A stretch of DNA of 64,000 nt from Janthinobacterium lividum. GTDB lineage: Bacteria; Pseudomonadota; Gammaproteobacteria; Burkholderiales; Burkholderiaceae_D. Below are positions 9,812-63,852 of the stretch, in pieces (position 1 is the stretch's first letter; each line of letters opens with the position of its first letter). The position numbers and the translations under genes are program-made. Location: contig NZ_CP075583.1 in NCBI RefSeq assembly GCF_023509035.1, forward strand, positions 1,612,001 through 1,676,000. The letters are read 5' to 3'. The notes below the pieces were generated by a model, which did no database searches, was not told where the DNA came from, and was given only the letters and a program-made list of their open reading frames with translations.

Positions 9812-12239
9812 ATGGAAGCACAAGCGAACGACAACACCACCCGCAAGCCCCAGTCGAAGCTGGCGCGCAATCTGAAATTCGGCCTGGGATTGACCCTGGG
9901 CCTGGGCCTGGCCGGCGCGCTGGCGGGCGGCTGGTGGCTGCGCCAGGCGTGGCAGGACTTGCCAGCCGTCGAGCACCTGGCGCAGTACAAGCCTGCGCTG
10001 CCGCTGCGCATTTTTTCCAGCGAAGGCGAACTGCTGGCCGAATACGGCGAAGAACGCCGCGAATTTTTGCCCTTGAAAGGCATCCCGCTGCGCATGCGCC
10101 AGGCCTTGCTGGCCATCGAGGATGCGCGTTTCTACGAACACGGCGCCGTCGATTTCTATGGCTTGACGCGCGCCACGCTCGCCAACGTCGTCACGGGTCA
10201 CCACGCGCAGGGCGCCAGCACCATCACCATGCAGGTGGCGCGCGACTTTTTCCTGTCGCGCGAAAAAACCGTGCAGCGCAAGCTGACGGAGATGCTGCTT
10301 GCCTACAAGCTGGAACAGCACTACGGCAAGGACAAGCTGCTGGAACTGTATATGAACCAGATTTACCTGGGCGAGCGTTCCTACGGTTTTTCTGCCGCCT
10401 CGAACATTTATTTCGACAAGCCCCTGGCCGAGATCAGCATCGCCGAAGCGGCCATGCTGGCCGGTTTGCCGAAGGCCCCGTCGGCCTATAACCCCGTCGC
10501 CAATCCGCAGCGTGCCACCGTGCGCCAGCATTACATCCTGCAGCGCATGCGCGAACTCGGCTACATCACGCCGGCCGAATACGACGCGGCCGTGGCGGAA
10601 AAACTGGCCCTGAACAAGGACCGCAACAGCTCCGTGCACGCGGCCGCGTATGCGGTCGAGGAAGCGCGCCAGCTGATCCTGCAAAGCTATCCCGAAGGCG
10701 CCTACAGCATGGGCCTGGACGTGACGACCACCATCCGCATGGCGCCGCAAATCGCGGCCGACAAGTCGCTGCGCGATGGGCTATTGAATGCGCAGGCGCG
10801 ACGCGGCTATCGTGGCCCGGAAGCGCGCCTGGCCGCCTCCGAAGACAGCGTGGCGCGCCAGCTGGCCCCCTATCCGGACAGCGGAGAAGTGCGCGCCGCC
10901 CTGGTGCGCAAGGTGGAGACCACCGGCAAGCGCCAGCTGACGGCGCAGTTGCGCAATGGCGACGAGATCGTGCTGATGGCATCGGATGCGCACCTGGGTG
11001 GCAAGCTGCAATGGGATGGCAAGCGCGCCATCGTCGAGGGCAGCGTCATCCGCGTGGTGCACGACGCGACAAAGAAGCGCTGGCTGGTGAGCCAGTTGCC
11101 CGAAATGGAAGGCGCGCTCATTTCCGTCGAGGCGCACAGCGGCGAAATCGTCGCCATGGCGGGCGGCTTCGATTTCTACCGCAACCACTACAACCACGCC
11201 ATGCAGGCCTACCGCCAGCCCGGTTCCAGCTTCAAGCCCTTCGTGTATTCGGCGGCGCTGGAAAAGGGATATTTCCCCGGCACGGCCGTGGACGATACGC
11301 AGCGCTTGCTGCTGCCGCAGGAAACGGGCGCGCAGCTGTGGCGTCCGCGCAATTACGGCAACAACTATGAAGGCTTCATCAGCGTGCGGCGCGGCCTCGT
11401 GCGCTCGAAAAACCTCGTGGCCGTCAGCCTGATGCAAGCGGCCGGTCCCGGCTACGTGCAGCACTACGCCACGCGCTTCGGCTTCGAGGGTGCGCGCAAT
11501 CCCGTCTCCCTGCCGCTGGCGCTGGGCGCGGGCGCCGTCACGCCGCTGCAACTGGCGCAATCGTATGCCGTCTTCGCCAATGGTGGTGTGCAGATGCCGC
11601 CAAAGCTGATCAAGGAAGTGCGCAGCCGCAGCGGCGCGGTGCTGTTCAGCGATGCGGCGCCACGCGCCAAGGGCGAGCCGGCGCCAGGCACGCAAGTCAT
11701 CTCCACGCGCAACGCCTACGTCATGGACAGCATGCTGCGCGACGTTGTCAAGAGCGGCACGGGACGCGGCGCGCTGGCGCTGGGACGCGGCGACGCGGCC
11801 GGCAAGACGGGGACATCGAATAACGCGTATGACGCCTGGTTCGCAGGCTATTCCTCGGGCCTCGTGTCCGTCGTCTGGCTCGGTTACGACCAGCCGAAAA
11901 GCCTGGGCAACGCCACGGGGGGCTTTGGCGTTGCCCGTCTGGCGCGACTACATGCAAGTGGCCGTGCAGGGCCGCCGCGAACGGGTGCTGGCCGAACCGC
12001 CAGGCCTGGCCCTGCTCGACGGCGATTACGTGTATGCCGAATACCTGGCCGGCGACTGCCTGAAGGATAACTTTGCCTTTATCCACAGCAGTGTCAGCTG
12101 CGGCAGTGGCGGTGCGGATACGCGCATGGCGCACGGTGAAGCTGGCGATGGCGGCTCCGGCACGGGCACGAGCGAGGCGCGCACCTTGAGCGAAGCGCGC
12201 GAACGCGAACAAATTCTCAAATCATTTTCGGAAGAATAA
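9812..12239 (+). CDS. class A penicillin-binding protein (PBP1A family), frame broken near the 3' end
   Basis: This bifunctional murein synthase has one N-terminal membrane anchor (about 22-43), a GT51 glycosyltransferase domain and a transpeptidase domain. Catalytic Glu103 is in EDARFYEHG. The transpeptidase motifs are SSFK (active Ser in GSSFKPF), SKN and KTG (Lys665). The frame is lost at a run of six G (11917-11922). With five G the protein continues ATGALALPVWRDYM, and a Ser/Gly-rich tail ends at 12239, giving about 808 residues. A sequencing insertion is likely. It is not beside pilMNOPQ, where the main ponA/mrcA of these bacteria usually lies, so it may be a second PBP1A. TRIC follows after four bases. 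Confidence 0.9.
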
Positions 12240-12243
12240 GAGC

Positions 12244-12867
12244 ATGCTGTTATATACGATTTATTTGGTGGCGATTGTCGCCGAAGCGATGTCCGGCGCC
12301 ATCATGGGCATGCGGCGCGGCATGGATTTGTTCGGCATCTGCATGATCGGCACTGTCACGGCGCTCGGTGGCGGCACTGTGCGTGACGTGCTGCTGGGAC
12401 ACTATCCGCTGGGCTGGATCGCGCATCCCGAGTACCTGCTGTTTACCATCGGCGCGGCCATCGTCACGGCCTTTGTCGCGCGCTACCTGCATCATCTGCG
12501 CGCCATCTTCCTGCTGGTCGATGGACTGGGCCTGGTGGCGTTTTGCGTGATCGGCTGCGACATCGCCATGTCGGCCAAGATGCATCCGGCCATCGTCGTG
12601 CTGGCGGGGATGATCACGGGTGTCTTTGGCGGCCTGCTGCGCGATATCCTGTGCAACCAGATTCCCCTCGTACTGCAGCGCGAAGTGTATGCCACCGTCG
12701 CCCTGTTTACGGGCAGCCTGTATGTGGGCCTGCTGTATTTCAAGGTCGACAGCTCGGTGGCGCAGCTGGCGTCCATCGGCGCCGGCTTCCTGTTCCGTTT
12801 CCTGGCCCTGCACTTCGAGTGGCGCCTGCCGAATTTCAATGGCGATCGCATACGCGGTTTTGAGTAA
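12244..12867 (+). CDS. TRIC-type cation channel family protein (former UPF0126)
   Basis: This is an inner-membrane protein of 207 residues with about seven hydrophobic segments in two homologous halves. Each half has the family hallmark: GGGTVRDVLLG in the first and GGLLRDIL in the second. Bacterial homologues (YicG/YadS family) form trimeric ion-conducting pores. The physiological role in bacteria is poorly known. It starts four bases after the penicillin-binding protein gene and is probably co-transcribed with it. Confidence 0.9.
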   Translation: MLLYTIYLVAIVAEAMSGAIMGMRRGMDLFGICMIGTVTALGGGTVRDVLLGHYPLGWIAHPEYLLFTIGAAIVTAFVARYLHHLRAIFLLVDGLGLVAFCVIGCDIAMSAKMHPAIVVLAGMITGVFGGLLRDILCNQIPLVLQREVYATVALFTGSLYVGLLYFKVDSSVAQLASIGAGFLFRFLALHFEWRLPNFNGDRIRGFE

Positions 12868-12963
12868 GGCAGTAGCCGCGTGAATATTTTTACGCGCCTT
12901 TAACCCCTTTTTCTGCGCCGCTGCGTTTCATGCTTGACACCCCAGCCAACCGGAGAAGAAGCG

Positions 12964-14857
12964 ATGTCCAGCGCCCTCAAGATTACATTGATACTGTCCC
13001 TGCTGCTGTCGGCAGGCTGCCATGCCGCCGGCACGGCGCCGCGCAAGACCCTGGCGCCGTTCGCCAGCGAGCAGGCCTTGAGCAGCTACCTGCAGCAGTT
13101 GCAGGCGCGCCAGGCGGCCCTGCAAAGGGAGCAGCAGAAACTGCAGCGCGCCACGGCGCAGTATTCGGCGCAGTACACGGCGGCGGCGCCGCCGGCCCCT
13201 GTCGCACCGATGGCGGCGAAAGCCGCGCCGGTTGCATCGGCGGAGGCGGCGGAATCCGTCACCAATGTGCAGACGGCGGGCGTGGACGAAGGCGGCATCG
13301 TCAAGCTGCATGGCAAGCACCTGGTGATGCTCAGGCGCGGCAAGCTGTTTTACCGTGCAGGTGGATGGCAAGGCCCTGCAACCCGTCGCGGCGCTTGACG
13401 CGTTCGCGCCGGGCAGCGATCCGTCGGGCAGCTGGTATGACGAGATGCTGATCGACGGCGACACGGTGGTGGTCATCGGCTACAGCTACAGCCGTGGCGG
13501 CACGGAGATCGGCCTGTTCGACATCGCTGCGGACGGCAAGCTGGCCTACCGCGCCACGTATCACTTGCGCTCCAACGATTACTATTCGTCGCGCAATTAC
13601 GCCAGCCGGCTGATCGGCAGCAAACTGGTGTTCTATTCGCCCCTGTCGCTGAACTTGCACCGGGGTGACCCCTTTGGCGGCTTCCCGGCGCTGCGCCGCT
13701 GGCGTCCCGATACGGTGCCGTCCGACTTCAAGCGCATCGCCCCTGCCACGCGCATTTACCGCACCGATGAAGAGCCCGAACCGGGCGCCGGCCTGACCCT
13801 GCACACGGTCACCGTGTGCGACCTGGCGCAGCGCGACATGCGCTGCGAAGCGACCGCCGTGATGGGGCCGCAGGGCCGCGTATTTTATGTGTCGGGCGAA
13901 TCCGTTTTCGTGTGGACGACGCGCCGGGGCCGCGACTCGGGCGTGTTCCGCATTCCCCTCGATGGTTCGGCGCCCAGCGCCCTGAAGGTGGCGGGCGCGC
14001 CCGTCGACCAGTTCTCGTTCCTGGAAAGCGTGGATGGCCACCTGAACGTCTTGCTGCGCGCCGAAGGCCAGGGCGACGCCATGTGGGATGGCGCGCGGGG
14101 CCGCGGCGACATGGCCTTGCTGCGCGTGCCATTGACGTCGTTTTCCGATGGCCGCGACAGTACGCCCGCCAGCAGCTACAAGCCGCTGCCCGGTGGTGGC
14201 GGCTACGGTCTGCAGAACCGCTATGTGGGGTCCTATCTGTTGTACGGCAATCCGGGCAATGGCGGTCGACGGCAGGCGGACCAGGCCTGGCCGCGCCAGC
14301 CCCTGTATGCCGTGCGCTGGGCCGATGCGGGCAGCGTGCAAGCCTTGTCTCTGCCGCACGGCGTGGAGCGCATCGAGGCGCTGGGCAATGATGCCGTAGT
14401 GATCGGCGCGCAGGGCAAGGATCTGCACTTCAGCAGCATCCGCCTGGGGGCGCAGGCGGCGATTGCCACGCGCTACATCCGCGCCGATGCGGCGCAGGGC
14501 GAGTCGCGCAGCCACGGCTTTTTCTACAAGCCACAAACGGCCAGCGAGGGCATGATCGGGCTGCCCATCCTGGACGCGGACGAGCGGCCTGGCCTCAACA
14601 AGTCAGCCGCATCCGTGCTCTATCTGCGTAACAGCGGCTTGCAGTTGACGGAGATGGGCGCGCTGGCGGCGCGGCCTGGCCAAACGCCGGACGACGGCTG
14701 CCGCGCGTCCTGCGTGGACTGGTATGGCAATGCGCGGCCCCTGTTCCTGCAGGGCCGGGTCTTCGCCCTGCTCGGCTATGAAGTGGTGGAAGGGGCGCTC
14801 AAGGAGGGGCAGATCCGCGAAGTGCGCCGCGTCAGTTATGCACCTGCCGCACGCTGA
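12964..14857 (+). CDS. beta-propeller domain lipoprotein (PF09826 type), frame broken
   Basis: This is a secreted or envelope protein with a C-terminal beta-propeller. The N-terminus has a hydrophobic stretch ending LLSAGC, a plausible though not ideal lipobox, then a Gln/Ala-rich coiled coil (about 38-75) and the family hallmark NVQTAGVDEGGIVK. The frame breaks at a run of four T (13348-13351). Three T would join LRRGKLFT to VQVDGKALQPV and give a protein of about 630 residues. The start at 12964 is preceded by GGAGAAGAAG. An ECF sigma and an anti-sigma gene follow, suggesting a shared envelope-stress or signalling role. Biochemical function is unknown. Confidence 0.82.
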
Positions 14858-50750: not shown

Positions 50751-51473
50751 TCAGACGATTTTTTGCCGGTCCGCGATCAGCGCTTCATAGGTGAGGTTTT
50801 GCAGCAGGGTGTAGTGGGTCGGTTCCAGGTCGATGAATTGCACGCCATACGTATAGATTTCCGCTACCTCGGCGGCGTGGCCATTCGATGGCTTGCCCAC
50901 ACTGACGTTCTGGATGCGCGCGCGCGTATTGACGCGCATCTGATGCTTGTTCGGCTGCACCAGCAGGGTAAAGCTGAGCGTCACGCCTTCGTCGTCCGGC
51001 GTGAGCATGCTGGGCGCCTCGATCAGCGCGCCCGAAACGCTGAGGTTGACGATAAACACGGGCACGGCCGCTACGTCGCGGTAGCTGAGCTGCGCCGGAA
51101 TGTCCACTTTTACGCGCATGGCCGTGCGCAGGCTGGTGCCCTGGATGGCGTCGGGAAAGCTCAGGTGGACATAATTGAGCGGGCGACCGAAGATGCGTAG
51201 GACGCTGCAGGAAAACGAACACACGGTAACGCCGGAAAACACGCGGATGGTCAGCTTGTCACCCTCGTTGAGCACGATGGACGCGCCGTTTTCCGTGGGA
51301 ATCTTGACGATCAGGTACTCATCTTTCACATAGCCGATCACGGTCGAGAAATGCTGGATGGGTTTGATGGTGCGGTGCGTGATGAACTGGATGCGTCCCC
51401 CCACCTGCAGATGCATGGCCTCGAATTCGAAGTCCTGGAGCTTGCTTTCCGCGGCGGGCTTGTTGCTTGTCAT
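50751..51473 (-). CDS. PilZ-domain c-di-GMP-binding protein (YcgR-like)
   Basis: This protein of 240 residues probably senses cyclic di-GMP. An N-terminal YcgR-like beta domain (about 15-115) is followed by a PilZ domain whose binding motifs are visible: RTAMRVKV (RxxxR) and NLSVSGALIE (the D/NxSxxG motif). The start at 51473 gives MTSNKPAAES; the open frame reaches 51533. YcgR proteins brake flagella, but the orphan pilin next door leaves a twitching role open. Confidence 0.87.
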   Translation of the reverse strand: MTSNKPAAESKLQDFEFEAMHLQVGGRIQFITHRTIKPIQHFSTVIGYVKDEYLIVKIPTENGASIVLNEGDKLTIRVFSGVTVCSFSCSVLRIFGRPLNYVHLSFPDAIQGTSLRTAMRVKVDIPAQLSYRDVAAVPVFIVNLSVSGALIEAPSMLTPDDEGVTLSFTLLVQPNKHQMRVNTRARIQNVSVGKPSNGHAAEVAEIYTYGVQFIDLEPTHYTLLQNLTYEALIADRQKIV

Positions 51474-52185: not shown

Positions 52186-53670
52186 TCAGAGTCGATTGAC
52201 ATTCTGCGCCCGCGCAAGCAGGAAGGTGACCAGGAGCGGGACGGGGCGACCGCTGGCGCCCTTGGTCCCGCCGTGTTCCCAGGCGGGACCAGCAATATCG
52301 AGGTGGGCCCAGTTGTAGGTGCGCGTAAAGTTCTCAAGGAAGCACGCTGCCGTAATACTACCGGCGCCTGGCGTGCCGAGATTGGCCAGGTCTGCGCAAG
52401 TGGACTTGATCTGCTCTTGATAGGCGTCGTGGAGTGGCATGCGCCAAGCGAGGTCGCTACTAGCGTGTCCGGCCGCGAGCAATTCATTGGCCAGTACGTC
52501 GTGTGCCGTATCGGCCCGGCTAAACAAGCCGGAATGGTGTTGACCAAGTGCCGTTACACAAGCACCGGTCAGCGTAGCGATATCGACGACGGCCGCAGGC
52601 TTGAAACGCGCTGCGTAAGTGAGCGCGTCGCACAGCACCATGCGTCCTTCTGCATCTGTATTTTGTACCTCGATGGTCAGCCCGCTCATCGAGGTGACGA
52701 TGTCGCCAGGCTTGACGGCGCGTCCGGAAGGCATGTTTTCGCACGCCGCCACAAGGCCTATCACATTCAAGGGCAAGCGCAACTCGGCGATGGCGCGGAA
52801 TGTGCCCAGCACAGCGCCGCCACCGCACATATCGTATTTCATCTCGTCCATGCCGTCGCCAGGCTTTAGCGAGATGCCGCCAGAGTCGAAGGTGATGCCT
52901 TTGCCGACCAGTATCACTGGTGCCTGCTTGAATTTCCCACCCATATGTTTCAAAATGATGAAGTACGGCGGCGCATCGCTGCCATCGGCCACAGCGAGCA
53001 AGCAGCGCATGCCCAGCTGTTCGATTTGCTGACGATCCAATACCTGTACGCCCATACCCCAGTCGCGGCCCAGCTGGCGGGCGGCTTCAGCCAGATAAGC
53101 CGGCGTGCAGATATTCGCTGGCAGGTTGCCTAGTTGCTTGCACAGATCAACGCCATTCGCAGTGGCCTGTGCCTGCGCCAGCGCCAGGTTGGCCGCCGCA
53201 TCCGGTTTTGTGGCAAGCACAATGCGCCGCACCCCGGCGGCCGATGTTTCTTTGCGGCTTTTCAGTCCGTCGCGACGGAACACGCTGTCCCGCGCGGCCG
53301 CCACCAGGCAGGCGATGGCCCAGCAGCGATCGCGCTCCGCCACCGCATCCAGTGGGAGCGCAACAGTTGCCTGGACCGCATTCAGGGTGGCGAATGCCTT
53401 GAGCATTGCGCGCACTGCCGTGAGGAAAATAGTGTCGGTCACGGCAGCTTCCTTGCCCAGCCCGACCAGCAGCACCCGGGCCATGCCGCCCACACCACGC
53501 AGCAATAGCGTGGAACCTGGCTTGCCGCTGATGTCACCCGAGCGCACCGCCAGCGAGATGCTTCCGTCACTATCCAGCGTCTGAGCTTCCAGCGACAAGC
53601 GCCGCTGCTCGAAAACGCCGACTGCGATGCAGGCGCTGCCGCTGTCCTTTTCCTTGATCTTGAATTCCAT
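52186..53670 (-). CDS. leucyl aminopeptidase (M17 family)
   Basis: This cytoplasmic enzyme removes N-terminal residues from peptides using two metal ions. The protein has 494 residues. The metal ligands and catalytic Lys are visible: Lys257 and Asp262 in [10 protein letters not shown], Asp280 in KYDMCGGG, and Asp339 and Glu341 in the M17 signature NTDAEGR. It is the last gene of the minus-strand peptide-use block, 160 bases after the epimerase gene. It is more divergent than a housekeeping PepA would be, in keeping with a dedicated role. Confidence 0.92.
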
Positions 53671-53830
53671 GTGTTCTTTCGTTTCGTGTTTATAGCAGGG
53701 CGCCCGGGTAAATCACACCGCAGGGTAGGTCGAAGCAGGTGCGCAAAGGCCGAGCGCAGCCTGTCCAGCGTGCGCGATGCAGCCATTACGGCGAGCCATG
53801 CCTGATTTTCAAAATCGTCCTTCAAAAGTG

Positions 53831-54817
53831 CTAACCCCACAGGCCAGGCTCCGCCGCGCTCAATAGCGCCGCCTGGTAGCACATCCCCTGGGAGCGGTCC
53901 TCGTGCAGGAGCAGCGGTCCATCGAGGTCGACATAGGTGCATTCCTGTGCCACCAGATGCGCCGGCGCCATCGCCAGCGAGGTGCCGCCCATATTGCCCA
54001 CCATGAGACGGAATCCCAGCTCGCGCGCCCTGCTGGCCAGGGCGAGTGCCTCGGTAAGGCCACCGCACTTGTCGAGTTTGATGTTGATGAATTGATAGCG
54101 GCCAAGCAAGCCGACCAGGGAGCCGCGGTCGGTGCATGACTCGTCCGCAGCCAGTGGGATCGGGCTCCGCAGGCCATCAAGCTGGGCGTCCGTGCCGCGA
54201 GGCACGGGCTGCTCGATCAGTTCGACGCCCTGGGCATGCAGCTCGGGCAAGATGTGTTCCAGCAGCTGGCGGCTCCAGGCCTGGTTGGCATCGATCAATA
54301 GCCGGGCGTCTGGATGCTCCTCACGCGCAAGACGCACCATCTCGGTGTGCCGCGTGGCATCGGCCTTGAGCTTTAACAGCGGAAAATGACGCGCGGCGCG
54401 GATTTTGCGCCGCACGTCGGCCTCGCTGCCGAGTCCGATAGTGTAAGCAGTCAGTACAGGGCTCACCTGCTTGCGGCCAGCCAGTTGCCAGGCCGGTTGG
54501 CCTGTCTGCTTGGCGCGCAAATCCCACAGCGCGCAATCGAGCGCATTGCGCGCGCCGCCGATCGGCAGCCATTGCATCAGATCGGCACTCGACAGACCGG
54601 CGTGAAGCAAGGGCTGCACCGCACCGATTTGCGCAGCGATGGACTGTGGCGTCTCGCCGTCGTAGCTAACGCCTGCGGCCTCGCCCCAACCGATATTGCC
54701 CTGCGCGTCGCGCAGGCGCACGACCAGCACGTCAATGGCCGTCATGATTTCATTGGCGATTTCAAAAGGCTCTTGCAGAGGCCAGTGTTCCAGCGCGATC
54801 TTGCATTCAATCGTCAT
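53831..54817 (-). CDS. dipeptide epimerase (enolase superfamily, L-Ala-D/L-Glu type)
   Basis: Enzymes of this group invert one residue of a dipeptide, classically L-Ala-D-Glu to L-Ala-L-Glu. The protein has 328 residues. The KxK motif is Lys149/Lys151, the metal ligands are Asp176, Glu202 and Asp225, and the second base lysine lies in NIKLDKCGG. The DxD pair Asp297/Asp299 (YVDLDGP) that holds the dipeptide amino group is present. This favours a dipeptide epimerase over the related N-acetyl-D-Glu racemase (DgcA). Its place between peptidase genes suggests that it lets D-amino-acid peptides be used. Confidence 0.85.
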   Translation of the reverse strand: MTIECKIALEHWPLQEPFEIANEIMTAIDVLVVRLRDAQGNIGWGEAAGVSYDGETPQSIAAQIGAVQPLLHAGLSSADLMQWLPIGGARNALDCALWDLRAKQTGQPAWQLAGRKQVSPVLTAYTIGLGSEADVRRKIRAARHFPLLKLKADATRHTEMVRLAREEHPDARLLIDANQAWSRQLLEHILPELHAQGVELIEQPVPRGTDAQLDGLRSPIPLAADESCTDRGSLVGLLGRYQFINIKLDKCGGLTEALALASRARELGFRLMVGNMGGTSLAMAPAHLVAQECTYVDLDGPLLLHEDRSQGMCYQAALLSAAEPGLWG

Positions 54818-54932
54818 GACAGGTTTCCTCTTGATGTGTAATGGCCGCGGCCAAGGTTTCCAGGCGCCGGCGCAGCGGCTCTGCCACGGAAGGTGTGCGA
54901 AGTAAGAGCATGTGGTTTCCGTTCAAATCGAT

Positions 54933-56417
54933 TCAAGGCCAGCCGGCGTGCGGGTGAGCCACTCGCGGCCAGTAGTCAAGCTTGCGCACCTGGTAGGCGA
55001 TGGCGGCGCAATCGGGGGCGATGGCGCCCGGGGTCGAGGCGTAGAGCACCGACCGGGCGATGGGCGCGAACTCGGCGTAAAAATGTATCGCGGACTTGAC
55101 CACTACCAGCTTCTTGTCGGCCAGACTCAAGCCGACACCGGTAAAGGCCTCGGGGGAAAACACTTGGCCACGCAGCGAAGCCAGCAAGAGGTGCACCTTG
55201 TTCTCGCACTCGAGCCAGACGCAGGTGCCCAGTGGCGCCCGCCCACCAATGGCGGCGGCGCTATGGCTGTGGTCCTCGACGACGGCGCGTACTGTCGCGC
55301 GCAAATCGATCGCCTGGCCCGAACTGGGGCCGCATTTACCGCCCACGCGCAGGTTCAGCGTCGCGCCGACACCGGCGTCCTTGCAGATCTGGATCGCACC
55401 AAGATCCCAGAACGCGCCGATGGCCACATTGCCAATGCCGCGCTCGAGTAGCCGCCGCAGCACGAAGGTCGAATCGCCAGGCGCGCCACCGCCAGGGTTG
55501 TCGGCCACGTCGGCCAGCACGACAGGTCCGCCATCCTGCCCGCGCGTTTGTTCGATTGCCAGGTCAAGCGCGGCATCGAGCGGCAGCACGTTGCCGCCTA
55601 TCAGCTCGCGCAGCGCCCAGAACTCGCGTCCCAGCTGTTCGGCAAGGGGCGCGGCCAGCACCGGGCAGTTATCGGTAACGACCCACAACCTGGCGCCTGA
55701 ATCGGCTACGTCGCCCCAGGCGAAGCCATGACCCAGCGAGATCGACAGGACGCCGTCGCGCCCTTCGAAGGACTGCATGCGCTTGACGAAGCTGGCCATC
55801 GGTTCGCGCGTGGTTTGCCAGTTTCCCACCATCTTGCAATCGAACACCGCCGTGCTCGGACGTACGCGTCCGGCATGCATGTCGACCAGGATGCGATAGA
55901 GTTCATGCGCGCGCTCCACGATATCCGTATGGGGATATTGCTTAAAAGCGATGATGACGTCTGCCGATACACGCATCAGTTCGGTGAAATGACAGTGCAG
56001 ATCGAGTTCGACACCGACAGGCACTGCGGGCCCGACGATTTCGCGCACGCGCATCAGCAAGTCCCCTTCGCAATCGTCATAGCCATCGGCCACCATCGCC
56101 CCGTGCAGCATCAGCTGTACCGCATCGACTGGCAGGGCTGCGCGCAGATCGGCCAGCAACTGTTCGCGCAGCTCCTCGTACACGGCGCGCACAGTACGGC
56201 CGGACGGCTCGGCTAGGGCGCACAGGCCTTCGACGACCTGATGGCCATCGTCCACCATCATCGAGCGGAAAGCGTGCATGACCGCACCGGTATCGTCTGG
56301 CGCTTTGAGGCTGGCATCGCCGTAGTAAATGCCACAGGCCTCGAAACTGCCGCGGCCGGTGGGGGTAGGCGCGAAGGTGTTGGTCTCGGTGGCTAGCTGA
56401 GCAATGAAGAATTTCAT
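54933..56417 (-). CDS. M81-family metallopeptidase (MlrC-like)
   Basis: MlrC completes microcystin breakdown in sphingomonads; other members act on unknown peptides. The protein has 494 residues. It opens MKFFIAQLATETNTF, as the family does. The probable zinc ligands are Asp139 and His141 in ELDLHCH, and His163 in YPHTD. The C-terminal domain holds DNPGGGAPGDST. The start at 56417 is 30 bases inside the open frame. It follows the serine hydrolase gene by 10 bases and precedes the epimerase gene. Confidence 0.88.
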   Translation of the reverse strand: MKFFIAQLATETNTFAPTPTGRGSFEACGIYYGDASLKAPDDTGAVMHAFRSMMVDDGHQVVEGLCALAEPSGRTVRAVYEELREQLLADLRAALPVDAVQLMLHGAMVADGYDDCEGDLLMRVREIVGPAVPVGVELDLHCHFTELMRVSADVIIAFKQYPHTDIVERAHELYRILVDMHAGRVRPSTAVFDCKMVGNWQTTREPMASFVKRMQSFEGRDGVLSISLGHGFAWGDVADSGARLWVVTDNCPVLAAPLAEQLGREFWALRELIGGNVLPLDAALDLAIEQTRGQDGGPVVLADVADNPGGGAPGDSTFVLRRLLERGIGNVAIGAFWDLGAIQICKDAGVGATLNLRVGGKCGPSSGQAIDLRATVRAVVEDHSHSAAAIGGRAPLGTCVWLECENKVHLLLASLRGQVFSPEAFTGVGLSLADKKLVVVKSAIHFYAEFAPIARSVLYASTPGAIAPDCAAIAYQVRKLDYWPRVAHPHAGWP

Positions 56418-56427
56418 CCTGCCCCCT

Positions 56428-58099
56428 TCAGCCGGCCATGCGCTCAAAGCGCAGATTGCGGGTACGCGGCGTATTGACGCGCAATGCGGTGATGGAACCG
56501 GCCGACCGCTCGACGCTCAGCACCCCGCGCAACGGCGGATATTCGCCACCGAAGCGCAGGCCGAACACCAGGTCCGAAAATGCCTCGAGCACCATCACGT
56601 CGCCACCATAAGGGCCGGACACCTCCAGCAACAGCTGCGCGCCGTCGAAGCGTAGCAAAGCTTCCGCTTGCAGGTCGGACGCATGGTAGCGTCCCAGCAA
56701 AGCTGGTGCCACCTCGGCCAAGGGCGGCGCTGTGACCGGCAGGCGCTCATAGTATTCGACATGGCCCGCTTCGCTGATGGCCAAGGTGGATGGCAGCGGC
56801 TGGTTTTCCACGGCCAGCGCAGCGCTCTGCAGCGCCAGTGGTCCGATCGCCATGTCCTCGAAATCCACGCGCAAGACATCGCCGTCCTGCGTCAGCGGTA
56901 CCGGTAGTCCGTCCAGAAAGGTCAGGCCCAGCCGTCCCTCGGGCGTTTCGGCAAAGCCACATACCAGGCCCGAGGCGCTTGCGTGGTAGCGTGCTCCCAG
57001 CATCGGCGTGAAGCGCGCGGCTGCCGCTTGCTCCTTTGCCATGCCGAGCAAGGCATCGCCGAGCATGATGTCGATGATCCTGTTGCCCAGCTCGATAGGA
57101 TTAGCGGGCGCGCCATTGCTCATGATAATGATGTCCAGTGCCTGGCCGGGCACGGTGATCATCTGGCAGGTGCCGCCGACAACGCCCCCGGAATGCTGGA
57201 TTACGTCGATGCCGCGGTAGTCGTGCAACATCAGGCCCAGGCCATACGGATTGACGAGGCCGTTGTTCAGCGTCGTGCGGGTCATCATCTGCTGCCAGCT
57301 GGCCTCGCTGCCTACCGTCTTCTTCTCTGCGCGCAGATGGGCGAGCCAGGTGAACATATCGTCCAGCGTGGAAATCATGGCGCCCTCGCCACGCAATTCC
57401 TCGGTCGGGAAGATGCCCCGCCGCCAGCCGCCGCCCTGCTCCGGCGCGCGCGGCACATACAGGCAGGCCAGGCCGGCATGGATCTCGAAATCACTGGGCA
57501 CGGAGGCCGTGTCCTGCATCCCCAACGGCGCCAGGATGCGCTGCTGAAGGAATTGCTCGAAGGGCATGCCGGCGACCTTTTCGATCACCAGGGACAGCAG
57601 GTGGTAGCCGCCGTTGCAATAAGTCATCTTTTCGCCTGGCGCGAAGTTGACAGCCGTCTGGCGCAGCTGGGCGGCGAGGGGCCTGGCCTTGTGGCTTGAT
57701 GGCCATGCCGTCGGCCAGGGAGGACAGGTCCATGAAGCAGCGATAGCCGCTGGTATGCGTCATGAGCTGGCGCAGGGTCGGATCGCCCTGTAGCAGCGGC
57801 AGCGAGGGGAAATGGCGGCGCACTCCGGCATCGATATCGAGCTTGCCGTCCTCGGCCAGCAGGAGGGCCGCCAGGCAAGTGAAGTGCTTGCTTGTCGAGC
57901 CGATCCGCATGCGCGTCCAGGCCGTATTGGCCACGCCCAGCTCGATGCTGGCCAGGCCGAAGCCGCGTCGATAAACGCATTTTCCGTGCTGTGCCACGCC
58001 AACCACCAGGCCCGGTGCATCGCTACGGTTGAAGGGGTGGAACAGCTCGTCCAGCGCAGCGATGCCGGTGATGGTTGTGGTCGTTGTGAGTTGGTTCAT
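56428..58099 (-). CDS. beta-lactamase-fold serine hydrolase (MlrB / D-aminopeptidase type), frame broken
   Basis: This is a penicillin-recognising-enzyme fold hydrolase, like D-aminopeptidases, class C beta-lactamases and MlrB. The SxxK motif is Ser68-Thr-Ser-Lys71, the YxN motif is the YCN in MTYCNGGY, and the third motif is HSGG. A C-terminal domain of about 200 residues (beta-rich, lipocalin-like) follows. The frame breaks near 57687 (CC in GGCCTT, read on the plus strand). Removing one base restores GMAIKPQARPLAAQL and gives about 556 residues. No signal peptide is seen, so it is probably cytoplasmic and acts after import by the MFS protein encoded 18 bases upstream. Confidence 0.83.
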
Positions 58100-58117
58100 G
58101 GTATCTCCTGTGAGGAA

Positions 58118-59482
58118 TCAGGCCTCGCGCAATGCGAGGTCAAGGTGGATTTTTTCGATGGTTTTCACAAACGGTTGTTCGGCCGCCCGCATCACGACGG
58201 AGGCCAATGCGAAGCCGACGGCACCGACGCCAGCCATCGCGATCAGCAGCCCCTGCGCGCTGGACTGCAGCAGATCGGACAGCGCGCCGACCAGCACCGG
58301 ACTCAATACGCTCAGGCCCACGCTCACTCCGGAGCCAATGGCGATGAGCCTGGAACGCAATGCTGCCGGGGTCATGTCTTGCAGCAGGGTCGGCATCAAC
58401 ACGCTGCCGGCAATCAGCGCCGCCACTTGAACGCCAAACAGCAGATACAGACCCGCGGCGCTGTGCACGGCAAGCATCAGCAGCGACGCCAGCGCGGCCA
58501 GGGCCGAACCGATGGCGACGACGCGAATCGGCGTGGCCAGCCCCACGCGGCGCCGTAACAGCTTCACGCCGACTGCCCCCAGCACCGCACCGGCTAACGT
58601 GCCCAGCAAATAGGACAGGCCGATACCTTGCCCGACCTGCGCCGCCGTTGCGCCAAATACGCGCGCCGCGACGATAGGCGCCCAATTGACGCTGGCTGCG
58701 AGCGCGAGTGCCAACAGGCCGGAGCCGCCAAACACATAGACCATGGTTCGGCCATGGGCGCGAAAATACGCCGGCAGGGCAGACTTGGCACCCGCCATCG
58801 GCACATCGGCGTCAGCGCGCCCGGGATGCAGGCGTATCAGCAAAACCGCCAGCGCCACCAGCGGACCCGGCAGCGCAACGATGAGAAAGGCCAGGCGCCA
58901 AGATTCCAGCGCCTGCAACGCGGACGGCAGCATGGGACGCACGCTGTCCAAGGCCTGCACCAAGGCGCCGCTGAGCGTAATGCCCAGACCCGAACCCAGG
59001 ATCACCGCCAGCGTATAGATGCCATTGGCCAGCACGCGGCGTCGCTCGGACACGATCTGCGGGATCAGCCCATAGATGATGGGGGTGAGACCGGCCTCAC
59101 CAATGCCCAAGCCGATGGCCGCGAGGAACAGGGCGGAAAAATCATGTGCCAGGCCGCAAGCTGCGGTGGCGGCGGTCCACACCAGTACGCAGGCAGCCAG
59201 CAGTGCGCGACGGCCAAAGCGGTCGGCCAGCCAGCCCAGCGGCACGGCGGCCACACCCACGAACAAAGTAATGCCGACGCCTTGCAGCAGGCCCAGCTTG
59301 GTGTCCGACAGGCCCAGGCTATGGCGCATGGGTTCGGCCAGCAGCCCGAGTATCTGCCTGTCCAGCGCATTGAAAATGGTGGCAACGACCAGCACGAGCA
59401 AACCGTAGCCAGCCAGCCAGCTGCGCGCAGGCGAGGCGGCAGGCTTCGACGGCGGAGCAAAATGCGAGGCGTGAATATCCAT
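58118..59482 (-). CDS. MFS transporter of the peptide-use cluster
   Basis: This is a 12-helix transporter of 454 residues. MFS motif A appears as GWLADRFGRRALLA between helices 2 and 3. FNALDRQILGLLAEPMR in helix 1 is typical of the spinster/ACS-like branch. It sits between the TonB receptor and the hydrolase genes, the expected place for the inner-membrane step that moves the receptor's cargo from periplasm to cytoplasm. The mlr locus likewise contains a transporter gene, mlrD. Confidence 0.85.
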   Translation of the reverse strand: MDIHASHFAPPSKPAASPARSWLAGYGLLVLVVATIFNALDRQILGLLAEPMRHSLGLSDTKLGLLQGVGITLFVGVAAVPLGWLADRFGRRALLAACVLVWTAATAACGLAHDFSALFLAAIGLGIGEAGLTPIIYGLIPQIVSERRRVLANGIYTLAVILGSGLGITLSGALVQALDSVRPMLPSALQALESWRLAFLIVALPGPLVALAVLLIRLHPGRADADVPMAGAKSALPAYFRAHGRTMVYVFGGSGLLALALAASVNWAPIVAARVFGATAAQVGQGIGLSYLLGTLAGAVLGAVGVKLLRRRVGLATPIRVVAIGSALAALASLLMLAVHSAAGLYLLFGVQVAALIAGSVLMPTLLQDMTPAALRSRLIAIGSGVSVGLSVLSPVLVGALSDLLQSSAQGLLIAMAGVGAVGFALASVVMRAAEQPFVKTIEKIHLDLALREA

Positions 59483-59554
59483 GAGCGTAGCCCTGAGAAG
59501 AAAATGAAGGTGGAACCGGCGGCATTGCCGCCGGGGACTTGACCGTGTCTGCGC

Positions 59555-62008
59555 TTAGAACGGCACTGTCAAGGTCGCGCCCAGCGTGCGTGCCTGGGCC
59601 AGCGAAACCCAGGCCGGGCCGCCAAGCGCCTGTACCGTGCTGTCGGCCGCGAGCTGCGCGCGCTGGTCGAACGCATTGCGCACGAATAGCGCAAGGCTGG
59701 AATGCTTGAAATCGATCCCGGCCTGCAGATCGGTCAGCGTGTAGGCCGGCAAGCGGTACAGTGGTAGCGCCGTACTGCCAGCGAAGCCTGCATTGCGCTC
59801 GCCGACATAACGCTGCGCCACCCCGGCATAGCTGGCAAAACCGGCCAGATCAAACGCATAGTTGGCGCTGAGACTGGCCGAAAAGCGTGCACTGCTGGGC
59901 AGGCGCGTACCGGCCACGGCATCCAGGCCGGGTGCATTTTCACTCAATACTGCATCGATGTAGGCGGCGTTGCCAGCCAATGTCCAATGCGCGTCAGGCC
60001 GATAGCCGAGCATCAGTTCGGCGCCCCGCACGCGCGCCGCGCCGGCATTGACGATCACCGAGAGGCCGTTGACCGGCAGGTACTGCTGCAGGTTTTTCCA
60101 GTTCAGCTGGAACACGGATGCGGCGACAGACAAGCGTTTGCCCAACAGTTCTGCTTTGTAGCCGAGTTCGTAGCTGGCAAGCGTATCCGGTTGAAATGTT
60201 CCAGGTCCGCTCGACGCGCCGGTACGCGGATCGCTGAACACCGCGTTGGGGCCGCCGGGCCGGTAGCCGGTCGCTGCGCGCCCATAGATAGAGCTGCCTG
60301 GCGTCAAGTCATAGCGCGCGGTCAGCAACCAGGTGCGGCTGGTGTCGCTGGAACGGGCATCGATGATTTTCGCGCCGCCAGACAGTAGGCCATCGGAGTG
60401 CTGCACGTTATGCTGCTTGTTGCGCGCAAATCTGAGGCCGCCAGTGACAGCCAGCTTGCTCGCCAGCTTCCAGGTCAGGTCGCCATACAGCGCCGTCTCT
60501 TTATATTGGGCCGGCAACGTGACATCCAGCAGATCCGGACCGGGTGCTCCGTCCACTAGCGTCGTGGCGCCATGCTGCCGGTTAGTGGTGTTTTCCTGGT
60601 TGTAATAGAAGCCGGCCAGCCATTCAAGTTGTTTGTCTGGCTTGGACGTCAGGCGCAGCTCTTGCGTGGTCTTGTCCAGCGCAACGTCAACTATCGCCGC
60701 CGCACCGCCTACATTGATGCCTAAGCCGGACAATAGTGGCACATAGGCGGAGCTCAGGTCGGTGAGGGCATTTGACCGTACGCGCTGCCGGGAGGTAATC
60801 GAATTGAGCCGTGCCCAGCCAAAGTCATATTCGAGATCGGCCGCCAGCAGATCGATCTTGACGCCATAGGGCTCGGCAATATACAGGCGCCGGCTCGTCT
60901 CGCCCCCGACGGCACGTCCGGTGGCGGGGTTGTAGTCGACAAAGTCGATGCCGTCGCGGCGGATTTGCTGGGTGGTGCCGGTCAGCCGCAGTCTGAATTG
61001 ATTACTTGGCATGAGCAACAGGGAAACACGTGCACCGCTGCTGCTGCCGCGGTCGCTGTCCCGGCGACTGACCACTCCTTCACTATCTACGCTGCCGCCT
61101 GCGTGATCGCGGAAGGCCGAGACACGCAGCCCCGCGACATCTTCCTTCAGTGGCGCATTGACGACTGCGCTGAGCGTATGGCTGGCGCCTCCGCCCCGCG
61201 TGCCCGCCCCGCTCACCACCACCTTGCCGGAGAACTCCGAGGTATTGGGTTCATTGGTGACGTACTTGAGCAAGCCCCCCATTGCGCTGGCGCCGTAGAG
61301 CGTGCCCTGCGGTCCGCGCAGCAACTCGATGTGATTGAGATCCAGCAAAGCCATGTCCAGGGCCATCTGCGCGCCGTTCGCCGTGGCGGTACTGGAACCG
61401 AAGGCCACGTCGTCGATATATACGCCGACAGTCGAAATGGTCTGGACACCGGTACTGACACCGCGGATCGTCAAGGTGCCAATGCCGGGACCGCCGGTGC
61501 TCTTGACATCGACGCCGGCTTCATTGCCCAGATAGTCCTGCAGGGTCTTGGCGCCAGCGCGGCTCAGTTTCTCCGTTGACAGACTCGATACCTGCATCGG
61601 GACTTCGCGCGCCGGCTCGCGGCGCCGGGTGGCGCTGACGACGACGGAGTCGATCACGGCCGCTTCGTTCTCGCTGCTCTTCTCCGGCTTCGGCGGCGCC
61701 TCGACGAAGATCAGCACGGCCCCCGAGACGTCGCGACGCACCGACAGGGAGGTGCCTTCGAGCAACTGGTGCAGGGCTTCCTCGGTCGGCAGTGCGCGCT
61801 TGAGACCTTTACTGCTGCGGCCCTTGACGTCCTCGATTTTATAGATCAGTTGTGTACCCGACTGCGCCGCATAGGCATCGAGCGCGGCTTTCAATTCGCC
61901 ACCTGCTATATCGAAACTGCGCACTTGGGCTTGCGCACTGGTGCACAATGCCACAGCGCTGCACAAGGCCAGGCGGGCCAGGAGCTTCCATCTTGTTGTC
62001 GGTTTCAT
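59555..62008 (-). CDS. TonB-dependent receptor with an N-terminal signalling (STN) domain
   Basis: This is an outer-membrane importer of 817 residues. A signal peptide (1-27, ending SAQAQ) precedes an STN domain (about 31-103) with FDIAGGELKAALDAYAAQSG. A TonB box lies near 117-129 (AVIDSVVVSATRR), followed by the plug (about 133-240; LRGPQGTLYGASAMGG) and a 22-strand barrel ending in Phe (LGATLTVPF). STN receptors signal through a FecR protein to a FecI sigma, both encoded divergently here. The start at 62008 is preferred; the frame is open to 62113 through the promoter region. The neighbours suggest a peptide cargo rather than iron. Confidence 0.92.
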   Translation of the reverse strand: MKPTTRWKLLARLALCSAVALCTSAQAQVRSFDIAGGELKAALDAYAAQSGTQLIYKIEDVKGRSSKGLKRALPTEEALHQLLEGTSLSVRRDVSGAVLIFVEAPPKPEKSSENEAAVIDSVVVSATRRREPAREVPMQVSSLSTEKLSRAGAKTLQDYLGNEAGVDVKSTGGPGIGTLTIRGVSTGVQTISTVGVYIDDVAFGSSTATANGAQMALDMALLDLNHIELLRGPQGTLYGASAMGGLLKYVTNEPNTSEFSGKVVVSGAGTRGGGASHTLSAVVNAPLKEDVAGLRVSAFRDHAGGSVDSEGVVSRRDSDRGSSSGARVSLLLMPSNQFRLRLTGTTQQIRRDGIDFVDYNPATGRAVGGETSRRLYIAEPYGVKIDLLAADLEYDFGWARLNSITSRQRVRSNALTDLSSAYVPLLSGLGINVGGAAAIVDVALDKTTQELRLTSKPDKQLEWLAGFYYNQENTTNRQHGATTLVDGAPGPDLLDVTLPAQYKETALYGDLTWKLASKLAVTGGLRFARNKQHNVQHSDGLLSGGAKIIDARSSDTSRTWLLTARYDLTPGSSIYGRAATGYRPGGPNAVFSDPRTGASSGPGTFQPDTLASYELGYKAELLGKRLSVAASVFQLNWKNLQQYLPVNGLSVIVNAGAARVRGAELMLGYRPDAHWTLAGNAAYIDAVLSENAPGLDAVAGTRLPSSARFSASLSANYAFDLAGFASYAGVAQRYVGERNAGFAGSTALPLYRLPAYTLTDLQAGIDFKHSSLALFVRNAFDQRAQLAADSTVQALGGPAWVSLAQARTLGATLTVPF

Positions 62009-62044
62009 CGTTCGCTTCCCCGGTATGGTGTCTCTGTCAAACAA

Positions 62045-62070
62045 AGACGAACAGCTCGCCACAATCCGGT
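62045..62070 (-). promoter_or_regulatory. ECF-type promoter copy A, facing the TonB receptor gene
   Basis: On the minus strand CCGGATT (62070-62064), 11 bases, then TTCGTCTT (62052-62045). It ends 37 bases before the receptor start codon, so the leader would be about 30 bases. It is one of three copies with identical spacing in this intergenic region. Confidence 0.7.
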
Positions 62071-62148
62071 ACGGCGTGCGCCGCAAAAAGTTCAAACTAT
62101 TTTTTGGTTTCATTATTTTCTTTCTTTATTGGCTGTCTCCGTAAAACA

Positions 62149-62174
62149 AAGACGAAGACCTCGCTGCAATCCGG
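62149..62174 (-). promoter_or_regulatory. ECF-type promoter copy B, facing the TonB receptor gene
   Basis: On the minus strand CCGGATT (62174-62168), 11 bases, then TTCGTCTT (62156-62149). It is identical in both boxes and in spacing to copy A, 104 bases further from the gene. Confidence 0.65.
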
Positions 62175-62221
62175 TACGTGGCGTGATTTTTTTAATATCA
62201 GAAAATATTTTTTTTACGATG

Positions 62222-62247
62222 CCGGATTTTCTGCGCCGCTTCGTCTT
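62222..62247 (+). promoter_or_regulatory. ECF-type promoter copy C, facing the sigma gene
   Basis: On the plus strand CCGGATT (62222-62228), 11 bases, then TTCGTCTT (62240-62247). The 11-base spacer differs from copies A and B, while both boxes are identical. It lies 45 bases before the TTG start of the sigma gene, fitting autoregulation. Confidence 0.7.
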
Positions 62248-62292
62248 AATAGGTAGGCTGATGGCTGAGCTTCAAAACGCGAGGGGTCTCGT

Positions 62293-62872
62293 TTGAAAGA
62301 TGATGAGTTGAACGCCTGGTTTGTCGAACAGGTACTGCCGCTGGAGGGGGTACTCGAACGCTATTTGCGCCGTAACTGGCGCGATGCGCGGGGAGATTGC
62401 CGATTTGCGGCAGGAAGTTTATGCGCGCGTCTTCGATGGCTGCGCGCAGCGCCGGCCCGAGTCGGCGCAGGCATTTATGCTGTCGACGGCGCGTAACCTG
62501 TTGATCGACCGGGCACGCCGCCTGCAGATTGTGTCGATCGAAACCTTTGCCAATATGGATACGCTGGCGCCGACGATCGACGAACTGAGCCCCGAACGCC
62601 ATCTGGCGGCGCGCAGCGAACTGCGGCTGTTGCAACTTGCCTTGAATTTGTTGCCTGCCCGTTGCCGCGAAGTTATTGAGCTGAGAAAGATCGACGGCTT
62701 GTCCCAGCGCGAAGTAGCCTCGCGCATGGGGATCACCGAAGATACGGTAGAGCGCCAGGTCTCCAAGGGCGTGCGCGCCTTGGCTGCGGCGTTGCAGGCG
62801 GCCCGGCAGGACGGTGATGGCAGTGCCGTGAGTCCTTCGGCAGCGCTGCGCAAGAGAGGAACCTTACAATGA
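62293..62872 (+). CDS. FecI-type ECF sigma factor, frame broken
   Basis: This sigma factor is probably activated by the receptor through FecR. Two overlapping frames together read MKDDELNAWFVEQVL, then LRQEVYARVFDGCAQRRP, FMLSTARNLLIDRARR (region 2) and LPARCREVIELRKIDGLSQ with a helix-turn-helix ending TVERQVSKGVRALA (region 4). The frame breaks at four G (62390-62393); three G give DAREIADLRQE and about 192 residues. The start is a TTG at 62293 with GAGGGG at 62281-62286. The stop overlaps the fecR start by four bases. One promoter copy lies just upstream. Confidence 0.87.
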
Positions 62873-63852
62873 CAACCGACAAACTCACACAGATAGAAGC
62901 CCGGGCGGCCGACTGGATTGCCGAGCGCGACCACAGCGCCGAATCCTGGCCACAGGAGCGACAGCAAGCGCTGGACGCTTGGCTAAAAGCATCGACCGTC
63001 CACCGCGTTGCCTTTTTGCGCCTGGACCATGCCTGGCGTCGGGCCGATCGCTTGCGCGCGCTGCAGGCGTCGAGTGCGCCCCTGGCGGCCGGGCAGCCGC
63101 AGCGTGCGCGCTGGGCCTGGCTGGCGCGACCGCCGGTCTACCGCGCGGCCGCCGGCCTTTGCCTGACCTTGCTTGCCCTGGAACTGGTGACCGATTTTGG
63201 TGGGTCGCGCACTATGCAGACCTATGCCACCGCGCGTGGTCAGCGCGAATCGGTGGCCCTGGCCGATGGTTCACGCTTGACACTCAATACGGCCACGCAA
63301 CTACGCACGGCCGTGACGCCGCAGGCACGCGAGGTGTGGCTGGATCAGGGCGAGGCCTTTTTCGATATCGCCCATGACGCCCAACGGCCTTTTGTCATCC
63401 ACGCCGGGCAGCAGACCGTCACCGTGCTGGGCACAAAATTTTCACTATTTCTCGAAGGCGACAGCTTGCGCGTGGCCGTTCTGGAAGGCCGCGTGCAGGT
63501 AAAGACCGCGCGCAGCAGCCCGACTGTATTGGCGCGCGATGAAGCTGCCGTGGCCGATGTCAGCAACGTTTTGGTGACCAAGAAATCCAGCCAGCAGTTG
63601 AACGCGGGTCTGAGCTGGCTGCAAGGCAAGCTGGTCTTCGATCAAGTCAGCCTGGCCGATGCCGCACGCCAGTTCAATCGCTACGGGCGCAAGCAGTTGG
63701 TGATCGAGGACGACGCCACCGCGCGTATCGCCATGGGCGGCGTCTTCGATGCGGACAATGTCGAGGCCTTTGCGCGTCTGCTGCATGTGGGCCTCGGTCT
63801 GAACGTGCGCACGGTGGGCAATGAGATCCGTGTTTCGAGCCCAGCGTCCTGA
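62869..63852 (+). CDS. FecR-type transmembrane sigma regulator
   Basis: FecR proteins carry the signal from a loaded TonB receptor to the sigma factor. The protein has 327 residues. A cytoplasmic DUF4880 region (about 8-55, with ARAADWIAERD and AFLRLDHAW) precedes one transmembrane helix (about 90-108). A periplasmic FecR domain (about 118-215, with LADGSRLTLNTAT) and a C-terminal STN-like region (about 255-325) follow. It is translationally coupled to the sigma gene (ATGA overlap). The 148 bases after it hold no supported gene. Confidence 0.92.
   Translation: MTTDKLTQIEARAADWIAERDHSAESWPQERQQALDAWLKASTVHRVAFLRLDHAWRRADRLRALQASSAPLAAGQPQRARWAWLARPPVYRAAAGLCLTLLALELVTDFGGSRTMQTYATARGQRESVALADGSRLTLNTATQLRTAVTPQAREVWLDQGEAFFDIAHDAQRPFVIHAGQQTVTVLGTKFSLFLEGDSLRVAVLEGRVQVKTARSSPTVLARDEAAVADVSNVLVTKKSSQQLNAGLSWLQGKLVFDQVSLADAARQFNRYGRKQLVIEDDATARIAMGGVFDADNVEAFARLLHVGLGLNVRTVGNEIRVSSPAS

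Follow-up and report, generated by a model that had tools for sequence, protein, structure and literature searches.

A 64,000-nucleotide stretch of the Janthinobacterium lividum genome (contig NZ_CP075583.1, positions 1,612,001 to 1,676,000; hereafter the window, whose numbering is used for all coordinates not assigned to another locus) carries near its right end an island of genes with predicted roles in peptide uptake and digestion. The genome is assembled as one 6.26-Mb contig. Six of the island genes lie on the minus strand: a TonB-dependent receptor with an N-terminal STN region (59555..62008, 818 amino acids from its likely start, in an open reading frame that runs to 62113; PF00593 and PF07715), a spinster-type major facilitator superfamily (MFS) transporter (58118..59482, 454 amino acids; PF07690, best solved relatives 6e8j and SPNS2), an S12 serine hydrolase, an M81 metallopeptidase (54933..56414, 493 amino acids; PF07364 and PF07171), an enolase-superfamily enzyme resembling DgcA-type N-acetyl-D-Glu racemases and dipeptide epimerases (53831..54817, 328 amino acids; PDB relatives 4gfi and 1jpd), and an M17 leucyl aminopeptidase in an open frame (52186..53670, 494 amino acids; PF00883, 1.5e-121; NF002074, 673.6 against a cut-off of 415). 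Divergent from these, on the plus strand, lie an extracytoplasmic function (ECF) sigma factor gene (62293..62872) and an open gene for a FecR-type regulator (62869..63852, 327 amino acids; PF04773, 3.8e-22). All eight genes and their divergent layout are found where the initial annotation had placed them, and Pfam and NCBIfam models bear out the families. The hydrolase and fecI-type genes are, however, each frameshifted, and the receptor probably starts near 62008 rather than at 62113, since the upstream ATG sits in an apparently duplicated promoter segment.

The island is a single clean insertion of about 12.0 kb, extending from 51999 to window-numbered position 64025 (25 bases past the window end) and seated between a small membrane-protein gene and moaC. 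In all eight sibling genomes examined, the flanks left of 51999 and right of 64025 lie 13-148 bp apart, with the particularity that in one sibling (L076) the left-flank match stops already at 50861. An M81 gene (E <= 1e-20) is present in one of 40 genomes of the genus, the subject genome itself. The island was acquired horizontally, as the empty site in the siblings indicates; composition lends this no support, G+C content being 62.8% in the island and 62.0 and 63.1% in its surroundings. No integrase occurs among the recognized island genes, and a comparison of the 200-bp stretches at the two ends of the island shows no shared exact repeat, direct or inverted, of 9 bp or more.

The nearest intact relative found, in Massilia sp. 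Root351 (L002), carries dgcN directly before its DgcA gene and has kynureninase and tryptophan 2,3-dioxygenase genes between DgcA and the aminopeptidase; in the window, scars stand in the place of all three. The minus-strand segment 53671..53830 joins a 5' remnant of the kynureninase gene with the dioxygenase 3' end: blastn against L002 gives 68% identity over 155 columns (E 8e-16), partly in the DgcA 3' end, and a second match of 35/44 positions (E 6e-6). The minus-strand segment 54818..54932 retains the start and 3' end of dgcN, aligning to the L002 dgcN 3' end and DgcA start at 65/88 positions (E 8e-14), with the dgcN start seen by eye. A one-nucleotide frameshift near 57675-57685 splits the S12 gene into an N-terminal piece with the SxxK motif (57491..58099; PF00144 profile positions 2-119) and a C-terminal piece with the YxN and HxG motifs (56428..57627; profile positions 143-315), both on the minus strand, while relatives encode the enzyme in a single frame of about 550 amino acids. 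The sigma factor gene is broken near 62385-62392: judged by the frames of L002, its conserved N-terminus from about 62293 lies in another frame than the open part at 62321-62872 (TIGR02937, 78 bits for the open part), whereas the gene is open in relatives such as L002.

With two frameshifts and three deleted genes, the copy in the window may not work, and it is probably a degraded relict. The initial annotation described genes that are indeed present, but overlooked these lesions. It could instead be that the copy is fully functional, the frameshifts being sequencing errors and the lost genes compensated elsewhere. Both frameshifts fall in short runs of G or C, a tryptophan dioxygenase is encoded elsewhere in the genome (419.6 bits), and the receptor, M81, MFS, racemase, aminopeptidase and FecR frames are all open. 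On the other hand, dgcN is not replaced (DUF1611, the DgcN family, has 0 matches in the genome), the deletions leave scars, and the ten flanking genes are open without internal net frameshifts against six siblings, which argues against generally poor sequence. In that comparison pyk was covered for its first 48-79 residues only in four siblings, and net differences of one to five bases are confined to the very 5' ends of two genes, in L074 and L078. A functional copy thus seems unlikely, although it keeps an appreciable chance. Islands of this kind seem to decay elsewhere too, since partial second copies of the S12 and M81 genes lie behind the receptor in an island of Roseateles (Paucibacter) toxinivorans (L003, 15120-16241).

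Recurrence of the gene combination

Related islands were collected with the M81 gene as bait, 25 loci coming from a scan of genome contigs and more from a family search, and their open reading frames were called with a home-made gene caller. Loci with enough flank and an M81 identity of about 57% or more were tabulated, giving 30 with the window included: 20 of the 25 scan loci, the window, L088 and L101-L108. Left out were L008, L010, L014, L024 and L026, on truncated contigs, and L090, which shares its contig with L017. Carriers include Massilia, Duganella, Pandoraea and Dyella, and R. toxinivorans carries three such islands (L003, L005 and L088). The island M81 sequences form one clade of 36 rows with support 100/99.

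The receptor is present in 28 of the 30 loci, the S12 hydrolase in 24 and the MFS transporter in 21, and 12 loci have receptor, MFS, S12 and M81 genes in this order on one strand. At least one D-amino-acid enzyme is found in 27/30: DgcA relatives in 12, DgcN in 4, DauA-like dehydrogenases in 17 and DadA-like ones in 6. By contrast, 12 control loci around distant M81 genes of the same family (31-33% identical) are each without a match at E <= 1e-15 to any of the remaining 16 query genes. The unit is therefore more than a chance assembly: a combination that arrived in one 12.0-kb insertion recurs in 30 loci and is absent from the 12 controls. The expectation that these genes would be conserved together in relatives is thus borne out. 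Distances between M81 sequences also track those between receptors (r 0.84 over 24 loci, after four near-identical Pandoraea rows were dropped; 0/2000 permutations as high), though the Fisher and permutation values are descriptive only, because the loci share kinship. A search led by the receptor in 300 genomes of the order, with up to three candidates scored per genome, points weakly the same way: at least two further genomes match at E <= 1e-100, and in each the receptor lies beside M81 and DauA genes.

Several loci depart from the common pattern. A Pelomonas island (L025, 2132-9968) has two MFS genes and three S12 genes side by side, which suggests paralogue expansion for several bonds or cargos. 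In R. toxinivorans L005, a gene resembling S9 prolyl oligopeptidases lies between the M81 and racemase genes (11617-13707) and may supply an endopeptidase of that island. Outside the island clade, four M81 genes 44-50% identical to that of the window (L099, L100, L109 and L112) stand beside D-amino-acid dehydrogenase-like and XRE-cupin genes; these neighbours suggest that M81 enzymes act more widely on D-amino-acid substrates.

Predicted surface signalling and its putative promoter motif

In classical Fec-type surface signalling an STN-bearing receptor, FecR and an ECF factor act together, and FecI/FecR-type regulators classically govern iron uptake. The window receptor shows signalling-domain matches to FoxA, FpvA and FecA, and the Pfam STN model (PF07660) scores 24.4 bits, under its cut-off of 28.4. 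Among the 27 loci with a complete receptor (L025, being truncated, was not counted, and a receptor is missing from L009 and L011), a receptor was taken to reach into STN if its tblastn match begins at query residue 75 or earlier. All 12 receptors that do so have ECF and/or FecR genes nearby, against none of the 15 others, crediting L017 with the ECF/FecR genes of L090 and counting L015, which is cut by the locus end, on ECF alone. One apparent exception, L088, has an STN-type receptor, so that an ECF/FecR pair was predicted beyond the stretch first retrieved; it was found just past it, on the adjacent DNA. Pfam detects STN in six of six STN-reaching receptors and in none of four others, three of the six (L004, L005 and L016) scoring above the cut-off. 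ECF and FecR genes are found together within the stretch in 9/30 loci, and in two more, L088 and L017, if further DNA is counted; this type of signalling thus belongs to one subgroup of islands. A regulator of the XRE-cupin type accompanies 14/15 of the receptors without STN and 0/12 of those reaching into it. These islands (L101-L107, L007, L012, L013 and L020-L023), which combine a receptor lacking the STN region with an XRE-cupin gene in place of ECF/FecR and with a DauA-like or DadA-like enzyme, are, by their gene content, the same locus under a second type of regulation.

A motif of the ECF promoter type, CCGGATT-N12-TCGTCTT, occurs exactly three times in the 6.26-Mb genome, every time between the ECF and receptor genes: two copies face the receptor operon (62044..62069 and 62149..62174, minus strand) and one faces the ECF/FecR operon (62222..62247, plus strand). 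Within the window 0.21 occurrences with up to two mismatches are expected and three are found, all exact; genome-wide, one mismatch is seen at four more places, and a reversed control pattern has one match. The segment 62044-62174 is apparently a tandem duplicate, with motif copies 105 bp apart, which creates the upstream ATG and lengthens the receptor reading frame. A relaxed form of the motif is present in 8/13 island loci scanned, near the ECF genes in L002, L003, L005, L006, L018 and L090 and before a neighbouring S12-M81 operon in L015 and L016; it is missing from L004 and L088 (distant ECF), L007 and L025 (no ECF seen) and L108 (ECF 73% identical). In L018 relaxed copies stand before the ECF gene (4269), before the receptor gene (5916) and, downstream, where another receptor N-terminus starts (15888). 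Receptor, ECF factor and FecR thus look like a dedicated surface-signalling circuit with a predicted private promoter, in keeping with the cell-surface sensing circuit suggested at the outset. The circuit, whose ECF gene is frameshifted in the window, shares its three components and the coincidence of STN with ECF/FecR with the Fec system. It differs in that one motif precedes both of the divergent operons, that Fur-box-like sites do not exceed those of shuffled sequence, and that the linked genes encode peptidases.

The same components would fit a siderophore or metallophore system, in which an iron-chelating peptide would enter through the receptor and be destroyed by the hydrolases to free its iron. 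Besides the classical role of its regulators, the best family model of the receptor is that of TonB-siderophore receptors (TIGR01783), and siderophore receptors, led by FyuA, make up most of its PDB matches. Yet it stays below the cut-off of each of the 25 models among the matches listed, siderophore receptors included (TIGR01783, 150.2 against 223.5), so it does not group firmly with that class. The best Fur-box match reaches 13/19, lies inside the hydrolase gene and falls within the maxima of 11-14 from 20 mononucleotide shuffles (one strand). Moreover, no ferric reductase or iron ABC transporter occurs among the island genes, and the partner genes in other islands encode D-amino-acid enzymes. 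Missed family cut-offs and a negative Fur-box scan leave the iron reading unsupported, and we consider it improbable. A peptidase coupled to a receptor and such regulators has a precedent in lasso-peptide isopeptidase loci, which include a TonB receptor and FecI/FecR.

Hydrolases, racemase and the comparison with mlr

The SxxK, YxN and HxG motifs are invariant in 32 aligned S12 sequences (intact relatives; the window gene is split). The predicted structure of an intact relative (mean predicted local distance difference test score 84) finds its best PDB fold in the D-aminopeptidase 1EI5, with template-modelling scores of 0.80 by target and 0.76 by query over 568 alignment columns, and the enzyme is therefore predicted to be D-aminopeptidase-like. 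It shares fold and motifs with the D-aminopeptidase of Ochrobactrum anthropi (1EI5) and the DL-peptidase Lip3 (9SN1), but is 22% identical and has no recorded activity, and the two window pieces score 74.8 and 48.8 against the D-aminopeptidase model NF009622 (cut-off 443). Lip3 and Lip7 of Paenibacillus are reported as lipopeptide-induced enzymes in PMC13188892, the accessible text of which does not mention an uptake locus.

The racemase passes the NCBI model for DgcA (NF042940, 408.1 against 400) and falls below that for L-Ala-D/L-Glu epimerase (235.2 against 343); its KxK, metal-ligand and DxD positions look kept when the alignment is inspected by eye. The Root351 DgcA scores 421.8. As in the DgcN-DgcA pathway of D-glutamate catabolism (PMC10845958, PMC11747546, as far as their available text goes), a DgcA-family racemase adjoins DgcN in relatives; the differences are that the island racemase sits in a peptide-uptake locus and that the dgcN of the window is deleted. 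DUF1611 is found in 8/15 island genomes searched, and 10/11 copies share a roughly 20-kb stretch with a DgcA relative (the exception is L092; L016 was identified by coordinates, and L093 holds only an edge piece about 9.5 kb off). DgcN is present in L002, L015, L016, L088 and L090. Many of the other islands have a different D-amino-acid enzyme, akin to D-arginine dehydrogenase (best PDB match 3NYC, 336 bits) or to DadA. Given the DgcA score, the DgcN genes beside the racemase in relatives and the dehydrogenase-like genes of other islands, a cargo containing D-amino acids, D-Glu in particular, is well supported by gene content, much as the initial annotation had surmised. Tryptophan is a possible second cargo residue, judging from the Root351 genes; in L110, with an M81 45% identical to that of the window, kynureninase and dioxygenase relatives again lie beside an aminopeptidase relative (78, 81 and 57% identity).

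D-Glu enzymes would also suit the recovery of murein peptides, that is, of fragments containing L-Ala-D-Glu, from the medium. S12 enzymes are related to DD-peptidases, and L-Ala-D/L-Glu epimerase is the next-best model for the racemase. Such a role is nevertheless a poor candidate, as no muramidase, amidase or L,D-carboxypeptidase is among the island genes, and neither the tryptophan-catabolic genes of the closest relative nor the D-arginine-dehydrogenase-like enzymes of other islands fit it.

The island had initially been likened to the mlr cluster (mlrA-D) of microcystin-degrading sphingomonads, with which it shares an S12 serine hydrolase, an M81 metallopeptidase and an MFS permease, and from which it differs in its additional TonB receptor, ECF/FecR pair and DgcA. 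MlrB is described as periplasmic in the available text of PMC12474180, whereas the island S12 hydrolase has no signal peptide evident by eye. The absence of mlrA held up: the nine island open reading frames scanned (the rest of the genome was not covered) contain no match to PF02517, the family of mlrA-type CPBP proteases. Kinship with mlr beyond the level of shared families did not. The window M81 keeps the zinc ligands E10, D138, H140 and H162, and the zinc site E39, D167, H169 and H191 is conserved in the window and in 35-36 of the 36 island rows, with residue roles here and below as given in the accessible part of PMC9982164. It is 39% identical to MlrC (7YLQ) and scores 350 against the MlrC model NF041767 (cut-off 999). 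In the tree MlrC, a long branch, falls outside the island M81 clade. Its residues W59, F67, E70 and Q468 are kept in 0/36 island rows, although the loop alignment is uncertain, F67 aligning to K in one alignment and to A in another. On the evidence of tree and residues we reject membership in the mlr group.

A degradation locus for microcystin or nodularin of a new, mlrA-less type could still be envisaged from the three enzyme classes in common with mlrB, mlrC and mlrD, and microcystins do contain D-Glu. F96 of MlrC is kept in 17/36 island M81 sequences, and the three islands of R. toxinivorans belong to a microcystin degrader typed as lacking the mlr cluster (PMC8068134, PMC5127115, in the portions available). 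The position of MlrC outside the island clade leaves a microcystin cargo unsupported, the MlrC residues named above are not kept, and R. toxinivorans has a separate and closer MlrC relative; we regard this explanation as very improbable. To our knowledge, Massilia, Duganella, Pandoraea and Dyella do not include microcystin degraders.

That closer relative is encoded in an MlrC-related cluster of R. toxinivorans DSM 16998 (G307:C16; L096 4747-9797, L133 2447-13960, L134 7799-16242), which we take to be strain 2C20. Its M81 is 51% identical to MlrC and groups with it, MlrC being a long branch, and is the sole one of 63 other rows to keep W59, E70 and Q468. The gene lies behind ECF and TonB receptor genes and before a C26 peptidase gene. 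The same contig encodes a Rce1-like CPBP protein, an S58 peptidase, two M55 D-aminopeptidases and a second M81, together with an oligopeptide ABC transporter, a class-III aminotransferase, an acyl-CoA ligase and beta-oxidation-type proteins. MlrA is described as Rce1-like in the available text of PMC12474180; a protein search with the R. toxinivorans CPBP sequence returned 65 proteins, most of them unnamed and none named microcystinase, and no MlrA sequence was compared. We propose this cluster as a candidate microcystin or nodularin locus. A true mlr cluster was not found on public plasmids, where none of the 294 records matching MlrC reached 60% identity and the best stood at 43%.

A putative D-peptide utilisation locus

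We interpret the island as a D-peptide utilisation locus, acquired horizontally and present here in degraded form, and put the chance that this is right at roughly two in three. In the intact form, to which Root351 comes nearest, the outer-membrane TonB receptor would bind an exogenous peptide containing D-Glu and probably Trp. Its STN region would signal through FecR to the ECF factor, which would switch on both divergent operons through the predicted private promoter. The imported peptide would then pass the inner membrane through the spinster-type MFS transporter and be cut in the cytoplasm by the D-aminopeptidase-like S12 hydrolase and the M81 peptidase, with the M17 enzyme trimming L-residues. 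Freed D-Glu would be converted to the L-form via DgcN and DgcA, and Trp would be degraded by the dioxygenase and kynureninase.

Several observations weigh against this interpretation. The loci are related rather than independent, and the co-occurrence counts are conditional on M81, because M81 was the bait with which they were collected. Signalling through ECF and FecR belongs to a subgroup, the STN score of the window receptor is under the Pfam cut-off, and the exact motif does not occur in L108 or L004 despite their ECF/FecR genes. DgcA clears its cut-off by 8 bits only, and the L002 DgcN is under its own (454.1 against 480). The G/C runs at both frameshifts leave room for assembly errors. 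Known spinster-family proteins move lipids, so that export or a lipid cargo is also conceivable, and we know of no substrate for any of the 30 islands.

At the level of the family, the idea that such loci sense, import and digest D-amino-acid peptides is well supported by their gene content. That these loci of Burkholderiales and relatives make up a broad and modular family devoted to nonribosomal-peptide utilisation, in which a receptor would sense a D-amino-acid peptide, a private ECF regulon would respond, and catabolic modules (DgcNA, DauA, DadA-like, Trp-kynurenine) would be swapped to match the peptide, is in our estimate an even proposition. Such a family would be comparable in logic to polysaccharide utilisation loci. 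It looks like a new variety of regulated peptide-utilisation locus; literature searches on mlr with TonB, on DgcN and on D-aminopeptidase with TonB found nothing, other searches being broad.

Peptides with D-amino acids, among them antibiotics, cyanotoxins and lipopeptides, withstand many ordinary peptidases, and their consumers are poorly known. The signature of STN receptor, ECF/FecR, spinster MFS, S12, M81 and DgcNA or DauA would make such consumers findable by genome search, and the same search led to the candidate microcystin locus in a degrader typed mlr-negative. The catabolic module beside each locus would predict part of the cargo of that locus, and the surface-signalling circuit would lend itself naturally to sensing D-peptides.

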